Of a stretch of 22,789 nucleotides of DNA, positions 14,845 through 18,856 are shown piece by piece. The DNA comes from Promethearchaeota archaeon. GTDB taxonomy: Archaea > Asgardarchaeota > Lokiarchaeia > Sigynarchaeales > SOKP01. Numbering within the stretch: position 1 is the stretch's first letter; each line of letters begins with the position of its first letter. A program made the translations under genes and the position numbers. Under the pieces are notes generated by a model that was not told the DNA's origin, searched no databases, and saw only the letters and a program-made list of their open reading frames with translations. The stretch is taken from the NCBI GenBank assembly GCA_004524425.1, contig SDNN01000023.1:1-22789 (forward strand). The letters run 5' to 3'.

Positions 14845-14860
14845 GCTCATTATAGCTTAA
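14841..14860. terminator. Hairpin shared by convergent genes
   Basis: A perfect 7-bp stem, TTAAGCT (14841-14847) and AGCTTAA (14854-14860), with loop CATTAT, spans the stops of both convergent genes. On the plus strand it is followed by a long T-rich stretch, which on the other strand encodes the Lys-rich C-terminus of PyrI. It looks like an intrinsic-type terminator for the plus-strand gene. Whether it acts on pyrI is unclear, since the minus-strand side lacks a T run. Confidence 0.5.
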
Positions 14861-15356
14861 TTTTCTGTTTTATTTTCTTTTCTTTTTTCTCTTTGGACGT
14901 GAATATAATCTCATCTAATTTGTAGATGCGATCACAATAGGCACATTGAATTTTTAATGGTTTCTCCTCTAACACATAAAATTCCGTATCAATCGGTTCT
15001 TTTTGTGAATTCGATATGCATGTTTTATTAATGCACAGAATTAATTTTTTTATTATTTTTGGTAATTTTACTTTCTTTTTTTCTATTACATTATAATTTT
15101 CTATCAAAGAAATAGTAGCATTTGGAGATAAAATGGAAATTTGTTGCATTTGAATTTCATTTAGGAAAACACCTTCTATTTTTATTATATCTTTTTTGAC
15201 ATGTTTTTTTGAGGGGACATTAACACCTATGGTCATTAAGTTTGGTGATTCATCCAAACCTGTTAAGTTTAAAATTGTTAGTGCATAACCAGCATCTATG
15301 TGGTCAATGACAGTTCCCTTGCGAATTCTTTCAATTTTTAATTTAGCATCCGACAT
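14850..15356 (-). CDS. pyrI: Aspartate carbamoyltransferase regulatory chain (PyrI)
   Basis: PyrI binds CTP/ATP allosterically and bridges PyrB catalytic trimers in aspartate transcarbamoylase, the first committed step of pyrimidine synthesis. The N-terminal nucleotide-binding domain begins KIERIRKGTVIDHIDAG, with a G(L)NVPS-like NVPSKK segment. The zinc site is complete and at almost the same positions as in E. coli: Cys108 and Cys113 in CINKTC, Cys138 and Cys141 in CAYC. Length is 168 aa; the last dozen or so residues are an added Lys-rich tail (KEKKEKKIKQKIKL). No pyrB lies next to it in this window, whereas pyrB and pyrI are often adjacent in archaea. A TATA box at 15393 sits about 42 bases upstream of the ATG. 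Confidence 0.92.
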   Translation of the reverse strand: MSDAKLKIERIRKGTVIDHIDAGYALTILNLTGLDESPNLMTIGVNVPSKKHVKKDIIKIEGVFLNEIQMQQISILSPNATISLIENYNVIEKKKVKLPKIIKKLILCINKTCISNSQKEPIDTEFYVLEEKPLKIQCAYCDRIYKLDEIIFTSKEKKEKKIKQKIKL

Positions 15357-15432: not shown

Positions 15433-16539
15433 TCAGAAATATTTGTTTTGAATAATAAAAATTGATAAAAAAAATAATACCGTCGTTGATATAAAAATAA
15501 AAGTTAAATTATCATCAATTTCGAGATCTAGATAATCTAGAAACCCAATGATTATAGCGCCAGCTAAAGGCAATATTAAAAGAGCTAAAGGTTGTATCGT
15601 AAAAAATTCGCTTAAGATATTCAAGATTATTACCCCTGAAATAAACGCTACAATCATTCCCGAACCCAAACCAATATATGTTTTATTGGTATTTCGGATT
15701 TTTTTATGACTTTTTCCTATGGTTCTACCTATTAAATTTGCTGAAATATCTCCAAATATTGACATGGTCATCGATGTACAGATAATTAACGGTCCTATAG
15801 GTTGGAATAGCCCATATAGGATTATGACGGAATAACATCCTACTGCCATCGAAATTTGTGGGCCTAGTCTTATGTGAAGTTCTTTTTCTCTTAAAATTTG
15901 GTTAATAGGTTTTAATGGATAAATACTTGGTTTTAAAATTCTCACGAAATCTGCCGTCGAGAGACCAATTAAAGAAATTCCTACTAGAAAAACCACTAGA
16001 TATTGCGTGAATAACATAACATCTCTTTCAATTGAATATATTGAAAAAAATATTTCAGAAACCAATTTAGGAAAGAAATTTAACAAATAAACAAAAAAAT
16101 TTTTAACTAAAAACCCGAGAGTAAAATAAAATAGAATTATCGCCAATACCACTAAATGAGTTATTTTTCTATAAATATCATATTTCAACGGCAAGATTGT
16201 TGGAGTCTTTTTAAAATTTTCATTTAAATCTTTATTTTTTCTTTTCTGCTTAAATTTTTCATTTAAAGTAAACAAGTAGAAAATTGGGAAGAAAACAATC
16301 AGGAAAGCTAAGAATAAATAATTGAAGGGAAAGACAATGAAATCCATCTCGTTGGGATAGAAAAAATTTATTATGAAAATATTGATTGATATTGAAGCGA
16401 CAAAGACTATAGATACGGCAAGGTTGTTTACAAAAGCTCCATATTCTTTTTCTTTTTTTGCTAAATAAGAGATATATATCATAATAAAACCGTAGATATA
16501 CATGAAAAAAAGAATAATGAAAGATATGTAGTTCAACAA
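15433..16539 (-). CDS. Polytopic membrane protein, dolichol/phytol kinase-like CTP-dependent transferase family
   Basis: This 368-residue, very hydrophobic protein has about ten membrane segments and resembles the SEC59/phytol kinase/DGK1 superfamily of CTP-dependent lipid kinases. Shared signals are the RK-x2-H motif (YRKITHL, 123-129), the GDISANLIGRTIGKSHK block at 263-279, a following KT-type motif (NKTYIG near 283-288), and the C-terminal DDNLT at 342-346 after FLDYLDLE. A polyprenol (dolichol) kinase for glycan carrier lipids is the most likely role. The Glu that usually follows KT/KS is Ile here, which makes activity less certain. The start is TTG at 16539 or 16536; ATG 16503 is also possible. 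A TATA box lies at 16555-16566. Confidence 0.65.
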   Translation of the reverse strand: MLNYISFIILFFMYIYGFIMIYISYLAKKEKEYGAFVNNLAVSIVFVASISINIFIINFFYPNEMDFIVFPFNYLFLAFLIVFFPIFYLFTLNEKFKQKRKNKDLNENFKKTPTILPLKYDIYRKITHLVVLAIILFYFTLGFLVKNFFVYLLNFFPKLVSEIFFSIYSIERDVMLFTQYLVVFLVGISLIGLSTADFVRILKPSIYPLKPINQILREKELHIRLGPQISMAVGCYSVIILYGLFQPIGPLIICTSMTMSIFGDISANLIGRTIGKSHKKIRNTNKTYIGLGSGMIVAFISGVIILNILSEFFTIQPLALLILPLAGAIIIGFLDYLDLEIDDNLTFIFISTTVLFFLSIFIIQNKYF

Positions 16540-16639: not shown

Positions 16640-18040
16640 TTAAAATTGAGACTCATCGATTTTGGGCATTTCAGCAGAGGACAAAGCCTTATCAATCGCT
16701 TCTTGTGGTAATTCGTAATCCTCTAAATCTCCAGTCATGTATTCCTTATAAGCTAATAAGTCAAAAAAGCCGTGACCGCTGAAATTAAATAAAATATTTT
16801 TCTTTTCATTATTTTCCCTTGCCTTCATTGCCTGATCAATAGCTTCTTTTATAGCATGAGCTGTTTCAGGAGCTGGAAGAATTCCCTCCGCGTTAGCAAA
16901 TTTAAGACCAGCCTCGATGATTTCTGTTTGATGATGCATGGTTGCCGATATGATTTTATGATTATATAACAATGAAATAATGGGAGCAATGCCATGATAT
17001 CTTAAACCTCCCGCATGTATTGGATGAGGTATAAAGGTATGACCAAGAGTATGCATTTTTACAATTGGCCCTTTCATTGCTGTATCTCCAAAATCCCATC
17101 GATATTGTCCTTTACAGACACTTGGACAAGCTCTGGGTTCAACTCCTATTATTTCTACATCTGGAAGTTTTCCTTGTATTTTATCTCTAGCAAAAGGTAC
17201 CATCAATCCTGAGAAATTCGATCCACCACCCATGCAGCCAATAATGATATCAGGTTTTACTCCTACCTTCTCGAGTTGAATTTTAGCTTCTTGACCCACA
17301 ATAGTTTGATGCAAAACAACAAAGTTCACGACGCTCCCTAATGAATATCTTGCTTCATCCCCTCTTAGACTGTGTTCTACGGCTTCTGATATGGCAATTC
17401 CTAGACTCCCAGGATGTTCTGGATCTTTTTCTAAAAATATTTTTCCAGCTTCAGTAAATCTAGATGGACTTGCATGCACTTCCGCATTGAAAGATCTCAT
17501 TAGAATTTTTCTTCCTGGTTTTTGAATGAAACTTGCTCTTACCATATATACAGTACATTTTAAACCGAATAAGCTGCATCCAAAGGAGAGTCCAGAACCC
17601 CATTGCCCTGCTCCAGTTTCAGTAACCAACCCTGTAAGACCTTGCTTCTTAGCATAATATGCTTGTGCGATTGCTGTATTTGGTTTATGGGATCCTGTAG
17701 GAGAATAAGATTCATTTTTATAGAAAATCTTTATATCATCTCCCTCCATTCCTAAGGCTTTTTCTAATCCCAGAGCACGATGTAGTGGTGAAGGTCGGTA
17801 TGATTTTGCATAAATTTCCCTTAATTCCTTTGGAATAGGAATATTTGGTTCTTGGGATACCTCCTGCAGGACGCATTCTTTCGGAAAGATTGCTGTAGCC
17901 ATCTCAAACGGTGCGGGTTTCCCATCCATTGGGTTGATCAAGGGCGTCATTGGTGAAGGTAAATCTGCTAAAATGTTTACCCATTCCTTTGGTACTTCGC
18001 TTGGTTGTAACAATATTCTTGAATTAAAATAGTCAACCAT
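16640..18040 (-). CDS. trpB2: Tryptophan synthase beta chain, TrpB2 type
   Basis: This is a TrpB2 (TrpB-like, COG1350-type) PLP enzyme that joins indole with serine (or O-phosphoserine in some archaeal TrpB2) to make tryptophan. The Schiff-base lysine is Lys119 in TGSHKPNTA; Glu141 and the loop follow in ETGAGQWGSG; the phosphate-binding loop is GCMGGGSNFSG. The long N-terminal part and the RPSPLHRALGLEKALG block distinguish it from TrpB1. Length (466 aa) is slightly long for TrpB2. No trpA or other trp gene is in the window, so indole must come from elsewhere. The ATG at 18040 has an AAAAGGTAAG ribosome site. Upstream lies a Trp-rich leader ORF, strong context for a real role in tryptophan synthesis. 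Confidence 0.93.
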   Translation of the reverse strand: MVDYFNSRILLQPSEVPKEWVNILADLPSPMTPLINPMDGKPAPFEMATAIFPKECVLQEVSQEPNIPIPKELREIYAKSYRPSPLHRALGLEKALGMEGDDIKIFYKNESYSPTGSHKPNTAIAQAYYAKKQGLTGLVTETGAGQWGSGLSFGCSLFGLKCTVYMVRASFIQKPGRKILMRSFNAEVHASPSRFTEAGKIFLEKDPEHPGSLGIAISEAVEHSLRGDEARYSLGSVVNFVVLHQTIVGQEAKIQLEKVGVKPDIIIGCMGGGSNFSGLMVPFARDKIQGKLPDVEIIGVEPRACPSVCKGQYRWDFGDTAMKGPIVKMHTLGHTFIPHPIHAGGLRYHGIAPIISLLYNHKIISATMHHQTEIIEAGLKFANAEGILPAPETAHAIKEAIDQAMKARENNEKKNILFNFSGHGFFDLLAYKEYMTGDLEDYELPQEAIDKALSSAEMPKIDESQF

Positions 18041-18127
18041 CTTTTCTTACCTTTTTATTTTTCATTTTTTAAAGACGTGTATCATCATAATATTGGATAT
18101 CAATATCATTAATGCACTTTTAATGGC

Positions 18128-18164
18128 GGAAATAAAAGCATGTAAAAAATAAGAGAACAATATC
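18128..18164 (-). promoter_or_regulatory. U-rich tract between leader ORF and trpB2
   Basis: On the minus strand the leader RNA runs through several T-rich stretches here (TTATTTTTT, then TTTTATTT). They begin about 20 bases after the nested hairpin at 18182-18242. Archaeal termination needs only U-rich RNA, so this is the best candidate site for conditional termination before trpB2. There is no direct stem abutting it. Confidence 0.35.
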
Positions 18165-18181
18165 GAAAATAAGAAGCGTGA

Positions 18182-18242
18182 TTTGGTTTAGACCGATGCA
18201 GAAGGCGTTATCGCCAACGCCAAGACCACTGCCAACACCAAA
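18182..18242 (-). promoter_or_regulatory. Nested GC-rich hairpin overlapping the Trp codons
   Basis: Three nested stems pair in order: TTTGGT (18242-18237) with ACCAAA (18187-18182), GCAG (18232-18229 complement) with CTGC (18201-18198 complement), and GGCGTT (18221-18216) with AACGCC (18209-18204), with small internal loops. Read on the minus strand, the 5' arm contains all five Trp codons of the leader ORF, and the stop codon falls at the apical loop and inner stem. A ribosome paused on the Trp codons would prevent the hairpin. The segment is visibly GC-richer than surrounding intergenic DNA. Confidence 0.6.
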
Positions 18243-18264
18243 CAAAATTTTTCACAGTAGCCAT
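18208..18264 (-). CDS. Tryptophan-rich leader peptide (trpL-like)
   Basis: This 18-codon ORF reads MATVKNFVWCWQWSWRWR then TAA. Five of its last ten codons are TGG, alternating with Cys, Gln, Ser, Arg and Arg. The ORF lies on the trpB2 strand, its stop about 168 bases before the trpB2 start. A TATA box about 30 bases upstream predicts transcription starting within a few bases of the ATG, so leaderless translation is likely. An upstream AAAGGTT is only a weak Shine-Dalgarno candidate and may not even be transcribed. In bacteria, such Trp-codon clusters before trp genes sense charged tRNA-Trp by ribosome pausing. Here the same function is inferred from position, codon content and the overlapping hairpin. 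A chance ORF is unlikely but not excluded. Confidence 0.65.
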   Translation of the reverse strand: MATVKNFVWCWQWSWRWR

Positions 18265-18289
18265 ATGAACTAAACCTTTTTTTAAACAA

Positions 18290-18299
18290 ATTTATATTT
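18290..18299 (-). promoter_or_regulatory. TATA box for the leader ORF and trpB2
   Basis: AAATATAAAT on the minus strand is centred about 30 bases before the leader ATG at 18264. This matches the spacing seen before other leaderless genes in this window, so the transcript should contain the leader ORF and continue into trpB2. Confidence 0.5.
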
Positions 18300-18451
18300 T
18301 CTTATCTATCAAGCTTTAAAAATTTAATCAATTTTTAGACATGTAATAAATTAATAAATGAATCACATGATTATTTGAAGATAAGGTCCCAATGATGCTC
18401 CATTTTAAAGAATTATATTAGTTCAAAATATATAATTTAAACAAAAATAGC
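18300..18451. other. Intergenic, no gene seen
   Basis: This is plain AT-rich sequence between the trpL-like promoter and the end of the Roadblock gene. I see no ORF, tRNA or convincing hairpin. An ATGATG near 18393 is not accompanied by the other box needed for a C/D small RNA. Confidence 0.5.
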
Positions 18452-18856
18452 TTATCTTCCTTCAAAAATTTTGTATAAATTTTTAGCAGCAATCCTCATG
18501 ACCTTTACCGTTTTCATCATGGTATCAATTTGTGTTCCCGCACATACAATTACTAATCGCCCTGCATTAGTAATAACAATATATCCATCATCTGCTCTAA
18601 CAATTACTTCACTTAGATCTTCTTGAAATAAACTTTGTATAGTAGAACGTCCTGTCATTAATAGGGCTGATGCAAGTCCGCAGAATTGATCTCCATCCAC
18701 GTGATATTGAGGTAAAGCTGAAAACGCTATTTGGTACCCTTCCTGTGATACTAAAGCAATTGCTTCAATATCAGCATTTGACGTAATAAATGTAATTTGA
18801 GGGCTAATCTTTTCTATATCACTCTGATCTATTCCTAAATCACTTCCAAATTGCAT
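18452..18856 (-). CDS. Roadblock/LC7 domain protein
   Basis: This 134-residue protein is made of a single Roadblock/LC7 domain, the fold that dimerises and serves as platform or GAP-like partner for small Ras-like GTPases (MglB, Rag/Gtr-type regulators). It shows the usual order: helix, strand pair DIEAIALVSQEGYQIAFSA, a central helix QFCGLASALLMTGRSTIQSLF, strands EVIVRADDGYIVITNAG and LVIVCAG, and a C-terminal amphipathic helix. Asgard genomes contain many such proteins together with expanded small GTPases (established knowledge). No GTPase gene is next to it here. An AAGGAGAT site nine bases upstream fixes the ATG at 18856. It is divergent from the large unknown protein at 19349. Confidence 0.85.
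   Translation of the reverse strand: MQFGSDLGIDQSDIEKISPQITFITSNADIEAIALVSQEGYQIAFSALPQYHVDGDQFCGLASALLMTGRSTIQSLFQEDLSEVIVRADDGYIVITNAGRLVIVCAGTQIDTMMKTVKVMRIAAKNLYKIFEGR

Follow-up and report, generated by a model that had tools for sequence, protein, structure and literature searches.

Regulation by translated leader peptides is a textbook mechanism of bacteria. The trpL and hisL systems of Escherichia coli are ribosome-mediated attenuators with leader peptides, and TnaC is a tryptophan-sensing arrest peptide with fixed peptide residues that serves the breakdown of tryptophan. The mechanism of ribosome-mediated attenuation in bacteria is covered by excerpts of PMC9413887 and PMC2965389. 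For archaea, the excerpt of PMC6737238 describes control of trp genes by TrpY in Methanothermobacter and Tar (TK0271) in Thermococcus and reports that little is known of tryptophan control beyond TrpY; the words leader and attenuation are absent from this text. According to excerpts of PMC8116511 and PMC11616081, both poly(U) and FttA/aCPSF1 bring about termination by archaeal RNA polymerase, and FttA/aCPSF1 prefers U-rich RNA and was proposed as a competitor of the coupled ribosome; attenuation and leader peptides are not mentioned in PMC8116511. Among the matches listed for archaeal leader-peptide attenuation (tryptophan, histidine, Asgard) in the open-licence literature, titles and abstract openings presented no case. 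PMC12482152, in its excerpt, concerns leaderless genes. The comparison presented here suggests that Lokiarchaeia gauge their tryptophan supply by ribosome stalling.

The short ORF upstream of trpB2

In the window, i.e. the whole stretch of DNA that was analysed (22,789 nt), a short ORF with the codons ATG GCT ACT GTG AAA AAT TTT GTT TGG TGT TGG CAG TGG TCT TGG CGT TGG CGA TAA lies on the strand of trpB2 (Table 1). Its position and sequence were exactly those given in the first-pass annotation, as was the pattern of five tryptophans within the last ten residues of MATVKNFVWCWQWSWRWR, one in every second codon. Tryptophan has a share of 0.88 % over the 5328 residues of 13 ORFs in the window, and the binomial probability of at least five tryptophans in 17 residues is 3e-7, uncorrected for a genome-wide search. 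The ORF is followed on its strand by trpB2 as the next gene, which starts 167 nt past the stop codon of the ORF. With a Roadblock/LC7 protein gene upstream and trpB2 next downstream, the ORF is intergenic. The TATA box placed ahead of the ORF in the earlier reading (18287-18299) was not conserved in relatives and is probably not the promoter. A conserved A/T-rich box, reading TTAACTTTTTAA or TTAACTTTATAAG in relatives, was obtained from the alignment instead; this is the probable promoter, with a predicted start site about 25 nt downstream, near 18290. Comparison of the window with the covariance models of 4227 Rfam families revealed no match at E up to 1, and a search of the plasmid collection with the DNA was also without a match. 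Elsewhere in the window, a gene for PyrI, the regulatory chain of aspartate carbamoyltransferase (PF01948/PF02748), was located at 14850-15356 on the minus strand, beside an ORF (15433-16539) without Pfam match.

Table 1. Position and basis of assignment of the features around the leader ORF.
Feature	Position	Strand	Basis
Roadblock/LC7 protein gene, 5' of the leader	18452..18856	-	
TATA-like box, A/T-rich and conserved (ATTAAATTTTTAAAGC); probably the promoter	18313..18328	-	alignment of 23 leaders
Outer stem P0, 5' strand (GGTTTAGTTC), just 5' of the leader ATG	18267..18276	-	pairing comparison
Trp leader ORF, MATVKNFVWCWQWSWRWR and stop	18264..18208	-	sequence; conserved 5' of trpB2/trpD
Hairpin P1 (GGCGTT-GGCGAT-AACGCC), last Trp codons and stop codon	18204..18221	-	fold and comparison
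Conserved CANNGG motif (CATCGG), after P1	18193..18198	-	alignment; 40 of 48 leaders have it at most 34 nt from the stop
Outer stem P0, 3' strand (GGTCTAAACC)	18185..18194	-	pairing comparison
Pyrimidine/U-rich tract after P0, candidate premature termination site	18144..18176	-	composition; termination putative
Element 2, imperfect inverted repeat GTGCATTAATGATATTGATATCCAATATTATGATGATACAC, before trpB2	18077..18117	-	conserved over 23 rows
trpB2, TrpB-like PLP enzyme, 466 aa, presumed regulated gene	16640..18040	-	PF00291; NF009057, 638 bits; TIGR01415, 590 bits

Occurrence and coding character of the leaders

A contig scan for TrpB2 yielded 32 loci, 25 from Lokiarchaeota/Lokiarchaeia and seven bacterial. 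In 22 of these 25 nearest loci, trpB2 was preceded at a distance of about 200 nt by a short ORF with its Trp codons in a cluster, with typical peptides such as MATVIYFTWQWPWWRQ, MTLAKNLAWRWQWPWRWR and MVTEDILFCWQWPWRS; no leader ORF preceded trpB2 in the remaining three (L001, L002, L023). Conservation of the Trp codons in related upstream regions, put forward by the first-pass annotation as the check on its reading, was observed: the in-frame TGG codons and a nearby stop were kept while other codons and the lengths of the ORFs drifted, in close as well as in distant relatives, the distant leaders having been chosen by their tryptophans. The start codons were aligned, and gaps between the start and the Trp cluster were multiples of three. 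The stop codon, TAA, TAG or TGA, was within or beside a hairpin in nearly all aligned leaders; in L006 one base was lost after the Trp cluster and the frame runs to a later stop. Several leaders deviated from the common form: a core Trp codon was lost in L013 and L020, only two Trp codons were left in L097 and L099-L104, and L017, L020, L021, L105, L118, L121, L128, L131-L133 and L141 start with GTG or TTG.

A covariance model of the nucleotide sequence, R1, was built on 26 leaders and searched with E up to 0.1 against 227 genomes of the phylum, which we take to be Asgardarchaeota, with Lokiarchaeia as the class surveyed. Forty-seven matches were obtained in 45 genomes, 25 of them the model's own rows and 22 new. 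The coordinates place every one of the 47 before trpB2 (39) or trpD (8); sequences and downstream ORFs were inspected directly for 25. The eight trpD leaders comprised two model rows (L033, L038) and six new matches. The weak matches, MIDNKRLLGWQMPWRY and MIENDFFLGWQMPWRY before trpD and MKIFSRDSRTWHCFWHR and MFTKINLLKCWHGLWRFKTLFQR before trpB2, each closed by a stop codon, kept two Trp codons four apart with varying residues between them. A pattern match without R1 match (G011:C36, L106) was judged not to be a leader. In one genome (G005:C50) trpB2 occurs twice, at a distance of about 15 kb (L005, L109), and each copy has its own, different leader.

The class survey covered 83 genomes; above the family cut-off, trpB2 was found in 60 of them (61 genes) and trpD in 23. 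Since only 23 of 83 genomes have such a trpD and 60 of 83 have trpB2, many members of the class may make tryptophan with indole obtained elsewhere and carry the leader at trpB2 only. A leader preceded 53 of the 61 trpB2 genes, 39 by R1 and 14 among the 22 others; these counts include kin, and related genomes are not independent events. The 14 diverged trpB2 leaders are short ORFs with closely spaced Trp codons, five with a TTG start only. Eight trpB2 genes lacked a leader, and in five of these genomes (G001, G002, G124-G126) the leader was at trpD in place of trpB2; none was found in the other three (G160, G105, G112). Fragments of trpB2 below the cut-off had a leader in G158 and G114 and none in G022. 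For trpD, 20 of 22 genes examined had a leader, eight by R1 and 12, in diverged form, among the 14 others; the trpD of G117, at a contig edge, was left out of the 22. Outside the 20 stands L115, by eye an open frame ending FWSWSWHY with no common start codon, and the L112 locus, in which trpE comes first, had no leader. Beyond the class, trpD regions of 17 genomes (18 regions) were inspected and only G178 and G179 had a convincing leader, that of G179 readable with a start set by eye as MWLKWGIEFGSLNRQ...TTWFCWLFWYW and a stop. These two Trp-rich ORFs (L219, L220) precede trpD in another group of the phylum, and AAGCTCT..AGAGCTT follows the leader stop of L219. The TTG-started short candidates of G227 (LWRSWWWI) and G098 (LWWLRATFLA) were not counted as leaders.

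The fair measure of the reading frame is provided by the 22 model-found leaders outside the model rows: 79 of 92 TGG triplets were in the frame of the ORF (79/10/3 in frames 0/1/2), and the spacing of neighbouring TGGs, counted blind to the ORF, was 69/8/20 for 0/1/2 modulo three. For 74 distinct leaders the frame counts were 241/31/13, a figure that is partly built in because 28 of the 76 leaders, the diverged ones, were selected by in-frame Trp codons. Stop codons in the 76 leaders were TAA (43), TAG (22) and TGA (11), and the codon between two tryptophans encoded Q, R, P, A, C, S, L, V, H or F. A short ORF enriched in codons of the product amino acid stands 5' of the biosynthesis genes. A short ORF with W.{0,3}W in its final nine residues occurred in 64 of 86 upstream regions of trpB2 or trpD (450 nt), whereas 60 dinucleotide shuffles gave a mean of 1.5 and at most 5 of 86, and the opposite strand had it in none of the 86; the 22 failing regions include leaders more than 450 nt from trpD, leaders with deviating spacing or tail and leaderless loci. 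Upstream of other genes (at least 200 aa; 12 loci and the window, trpB2 excluded) the pattern was present in 0 of 52. In 400 kb of the relative G130 it occurred in one of 698 intergenic ATG-started short ORFs, namely the trpB2 leader, and a crude count in the same sample gave 0 to 4 of 698 for each of H, C, M, R, P, Q, Y and T. A chance Trp-rich ORF or a low-complexity hexamer repeat, as the nearly hexameric TTGGNN of the window copy might indicate, is contradicted by the conservation in relatives and by these controls; its probability is practically negligible.

The last tryptophan is one to three residues from the stop in 67 of 76 leaders, and R, H or Q often follows it (by eye). This arrangement would also suit a nascent peptide which, in the manner of TnaC, senses free tryptophan at termination with W-x-W beside the stop, and not charged tRNA-Trp. 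Such a peptide is quite unlikely: number, spacing and neighbours of the tryptophans vary widely (WQWPWR, WHCFWH, WFCICCWHA, WPWH, WAWREL), and the constraint by the hairpin P1 described below accounts equally well for their position.

Histidine operons, first taken as a control, presented a similar picture. Among 31 hisG regions, 12 hisIE-led loci were scored, while 19 incomplete or not hisIE-led regions were scanned and left unscored. In six of the 12, a count made post hoc, a His-rich ORF preceded the operon (L188, L189, L191-L194), 83-87 nt 5' of the gene ahead of hisG, with the endings HHLHHK, HHWLHHE, HHFPTHK, HHWLHH, HHHQHHE and HHWHYHL; it was absent in six related loci (L190, L195, L208-L211). 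The gene ahead of hisG was HisIE by HMM in L188, L190 and L192 and just below the cut-off in L191; the other eight were assigned by eye from a similar start sequence. A stem starting at the stop codon was seen by eye in the His leaders (ATTCCGATGAAT/ATTCATTGGAAT); it has changed pairs in L191, L192 and L194. From their sequence, these short ORFs are candidate His leader peptides, and they fit a more general leader device in these archaea.

RNA features and the proposed mechanism

Hairpin P1 takes as its 5' arm the last Trp codon or codons and the next bases, and the stop codon lies in the loop or the 3' arm in most leaders and beyond the stem in L006 and L101-L103. A predicted stem thus overlaps or adjoins the regulatory codons with its 5' arm. 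The arms differ among leaders (GGCGTT/AACGCC, GGTCTT/AAGACC, GGCGCG/CGCGCT, GTTGGC/GCCAAT), and over 26 leaders 91.4 % of the cells are paired, compared with 40-63.4 % in slid controls. Four cells were changed on both sides, which 3 of 500 shuffles reached; counted by pairs, two of six were changed on both sides, which 100 of 500 shuffles reached. The outer stem P0 would join the stretch before the ATG to the stretch past CANNGG, e.g. TATGGTTTA/TAAACCATA and ATATGATTTA/TAAATCATAT. It was examined in 40 of 48 leaders, the eight that lack CANNGG in the 34 nt past the stop being excluded, and the own pairing scored 17.60 against a mean of 13.89 and a maximum of 15.90 for permuted partners (2000 permutations, relatedness uncontrolled). 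In 14 of the 40 leaders the pairing was below the permuted mean; for this reason, and with relatedness uncontrolled, P0 is assigned to part of the leaders. The leader is richest in T between +30 and +45 past the stop, the bin in which P0 ends (T 0.55, A 0.21, G 0.06; 48 leaders), and pyrimidine windows were modestly above shuffles, with 16.2 against 14.7 of 20.

Element 2 has invariant GCATTA, TTG, TCCA and ACA over 23 rows and could act as a hairpin in the RNA or as an operator in the DNA. A similar sequence precedes trpD in L033 and L038; L001 and L023, both without leader ORF, retain the 3' part of the element. The NN positions of CANNGG vary freely and no partner was found for the motif; its pairing with TCCAAT of element 2 as an antiterminator was rejected, as no covariation was observed and NN varied without a matching change. 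P1, CANNGG and element 2, as well as P0 in some of the leaders, are conserved in nucleotides, which would suit a structured RNA, such as a riboswitch or a protein-binding RNA, with the TGGs there by accident. The phase and three-base spacing of TGG, the in-frame stop written with all three stop codons, the drift of distant leaders (picked by Trp) almost everywhere except at TGG, and the window without an Rfam match argue against this possibility and make it very improbable.

The first-pass annotation had interpreted the locus as leader-peptide attenuation. The leader part is upheld by the conserved Trp-codon ORF before trpB2 and trpD; the attenuation part stays a proposal: the hairpin at the stop codon, P0 in some of the leaders and the U-rich tract stand at the places that attenuation would require, but neither alignment nor RNAalifold found a terminator/antiterminator pair common to all leaders. 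RNAalifold over the whole leader returned six pairs only, and the free fold of the window leader was only slightly more stable than those of shuffled sequences (z -1.38; 20 of 200 matched it). Candidate alternative pairings were present only in single folds of GC-rich leaders among the 12 leaders folded, e.g. in L122-L124. The stems of these three are stronger, for example CCTGGCG/CGCCAGG and GGCGC/GCGCC, which share bases and look switchable.

A Trp leader peptide could also act on translation or mRNA stability, e.g. by freeing or hiding a ribosome-binding site. In L219, outside the class, CTCTCC after the stop can pair with GGAGAGG before trpD, and in most of the His leaders a second hairpin stands directly before GGGGG (all by eye). 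In the trp leaders of Lokiarchaeia no conserved pairing of the gene start region was seen, and the U-rich tract is located at the end of P0; we consider this output a minor possibility. Accessibility at the gene start, 0.42 unpaired and equal to the ORF, does not separate translational from transcriptional output.

The reading we prefer is a cis-acting Trp leader peptide (uORF) of the Trp regulon of Lokiarchaeia that senses the charging of tRNA-Trp, most likely via premature termination of transcription; we hold this to be probable. For its parts, control of the gene in cis by a translated leader with Trp codons is very likely, and we give about an even chance to an output by termination at the U-rich tract. 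The leader would be transcribed from the conserved A/T box and the ORF translated at once. With ample Trp-tRNA the ribosome would reach the stop codon in P1 and leave, P1 and P0 would form, and RNA polymerase would halt at the U-rich tract, with little expression of trpB2 or trpD-trpC. When Trp-tRNA is short, the ribosome would stall on the TGG codons, within or adjoining the 5' arm of P1; covering this arm and standing inside P0, it would prevent both stems, and transcription would continue into the gene. Premature termination under tryptophan sufficiency would be the simplest output because a stall blocks the stem beside the U-rich tract and a finished ribosome frees it. The polarity, expression upon stalling, is assumed because biosynthesis genes should rise as Trp-tRNA falls. 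Termination might be intrinsic or brought about by FttA/aCPSF1.

Comparison with known systems

We lean towards the view that Asgard archaea run amino-acid-specific leader-peptide attenuators, for tryptophan at trpB2 and trpD-trpC and for histidine at hisIE-led his operons, which couple ribosome stalling to transcript output on a eukaryote-like transcription machine. If this is true, the attenuator family would have evolved separately from those of bacteria, and a Trp/His sensor family would have been found by comparative genomics alone. An archaeal RNA polymerase made responsive to a stalled ribosome would imply tight coupling of transcription and translation in the lineage closest to eukaryotes; Lokiarchaea are relatives of the ancestors of complex cells. 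The leaders would then offer a direct genetic read-out of this coupling in Asgard archaea, testable by a few codon swaps.

The TrpY and Tar systems likewise control archaeal trp genes according to the supply of tryptophan or aromatic amino acids, but in contrast to a leader they are DNA-binding proteins at the promoter (excerpt of PMC6737238). Two known or proposed ingredients of FttA and poly(U) termination, U-rich RNA and a coupled ribosome as competitor, recur in the proposed device; as described in the excerpts of PMC11616081 and PMC8116511, this termination is general and without an amino-acid-specific leader. TnaC resembles the archaeal leaders in its Trp-containing leader and in events at the stop codon, whereas the archaeal leaders keep little beyond tryptophan. 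The closest known kind are the bacterial leader-peptide attenuators. The host differs, being an archaeon whose RNA polymerase resembles Pol II and terminates by other rules, and so does the placement before trpB2 and trpD. In the archaeal leaders Trp codons are often arranged in alternation with others, and in 67 of 76 the last Trp is separated from the stop by one to three residues. Most leaders have the stop codon inside the hairpin, and no canonical 1:2/2:3/3:4 set is common to all of them. As in the bacterial attenuators, the short ORF of Lokiarchaeia clusters codons for the amino acid of the downstream gene, the 5' arm of a predicted hairpin overlaps or adjoins the regulatory codons, a U-rich stretch follows past the stem, and both Trp and candidate His versions occur.
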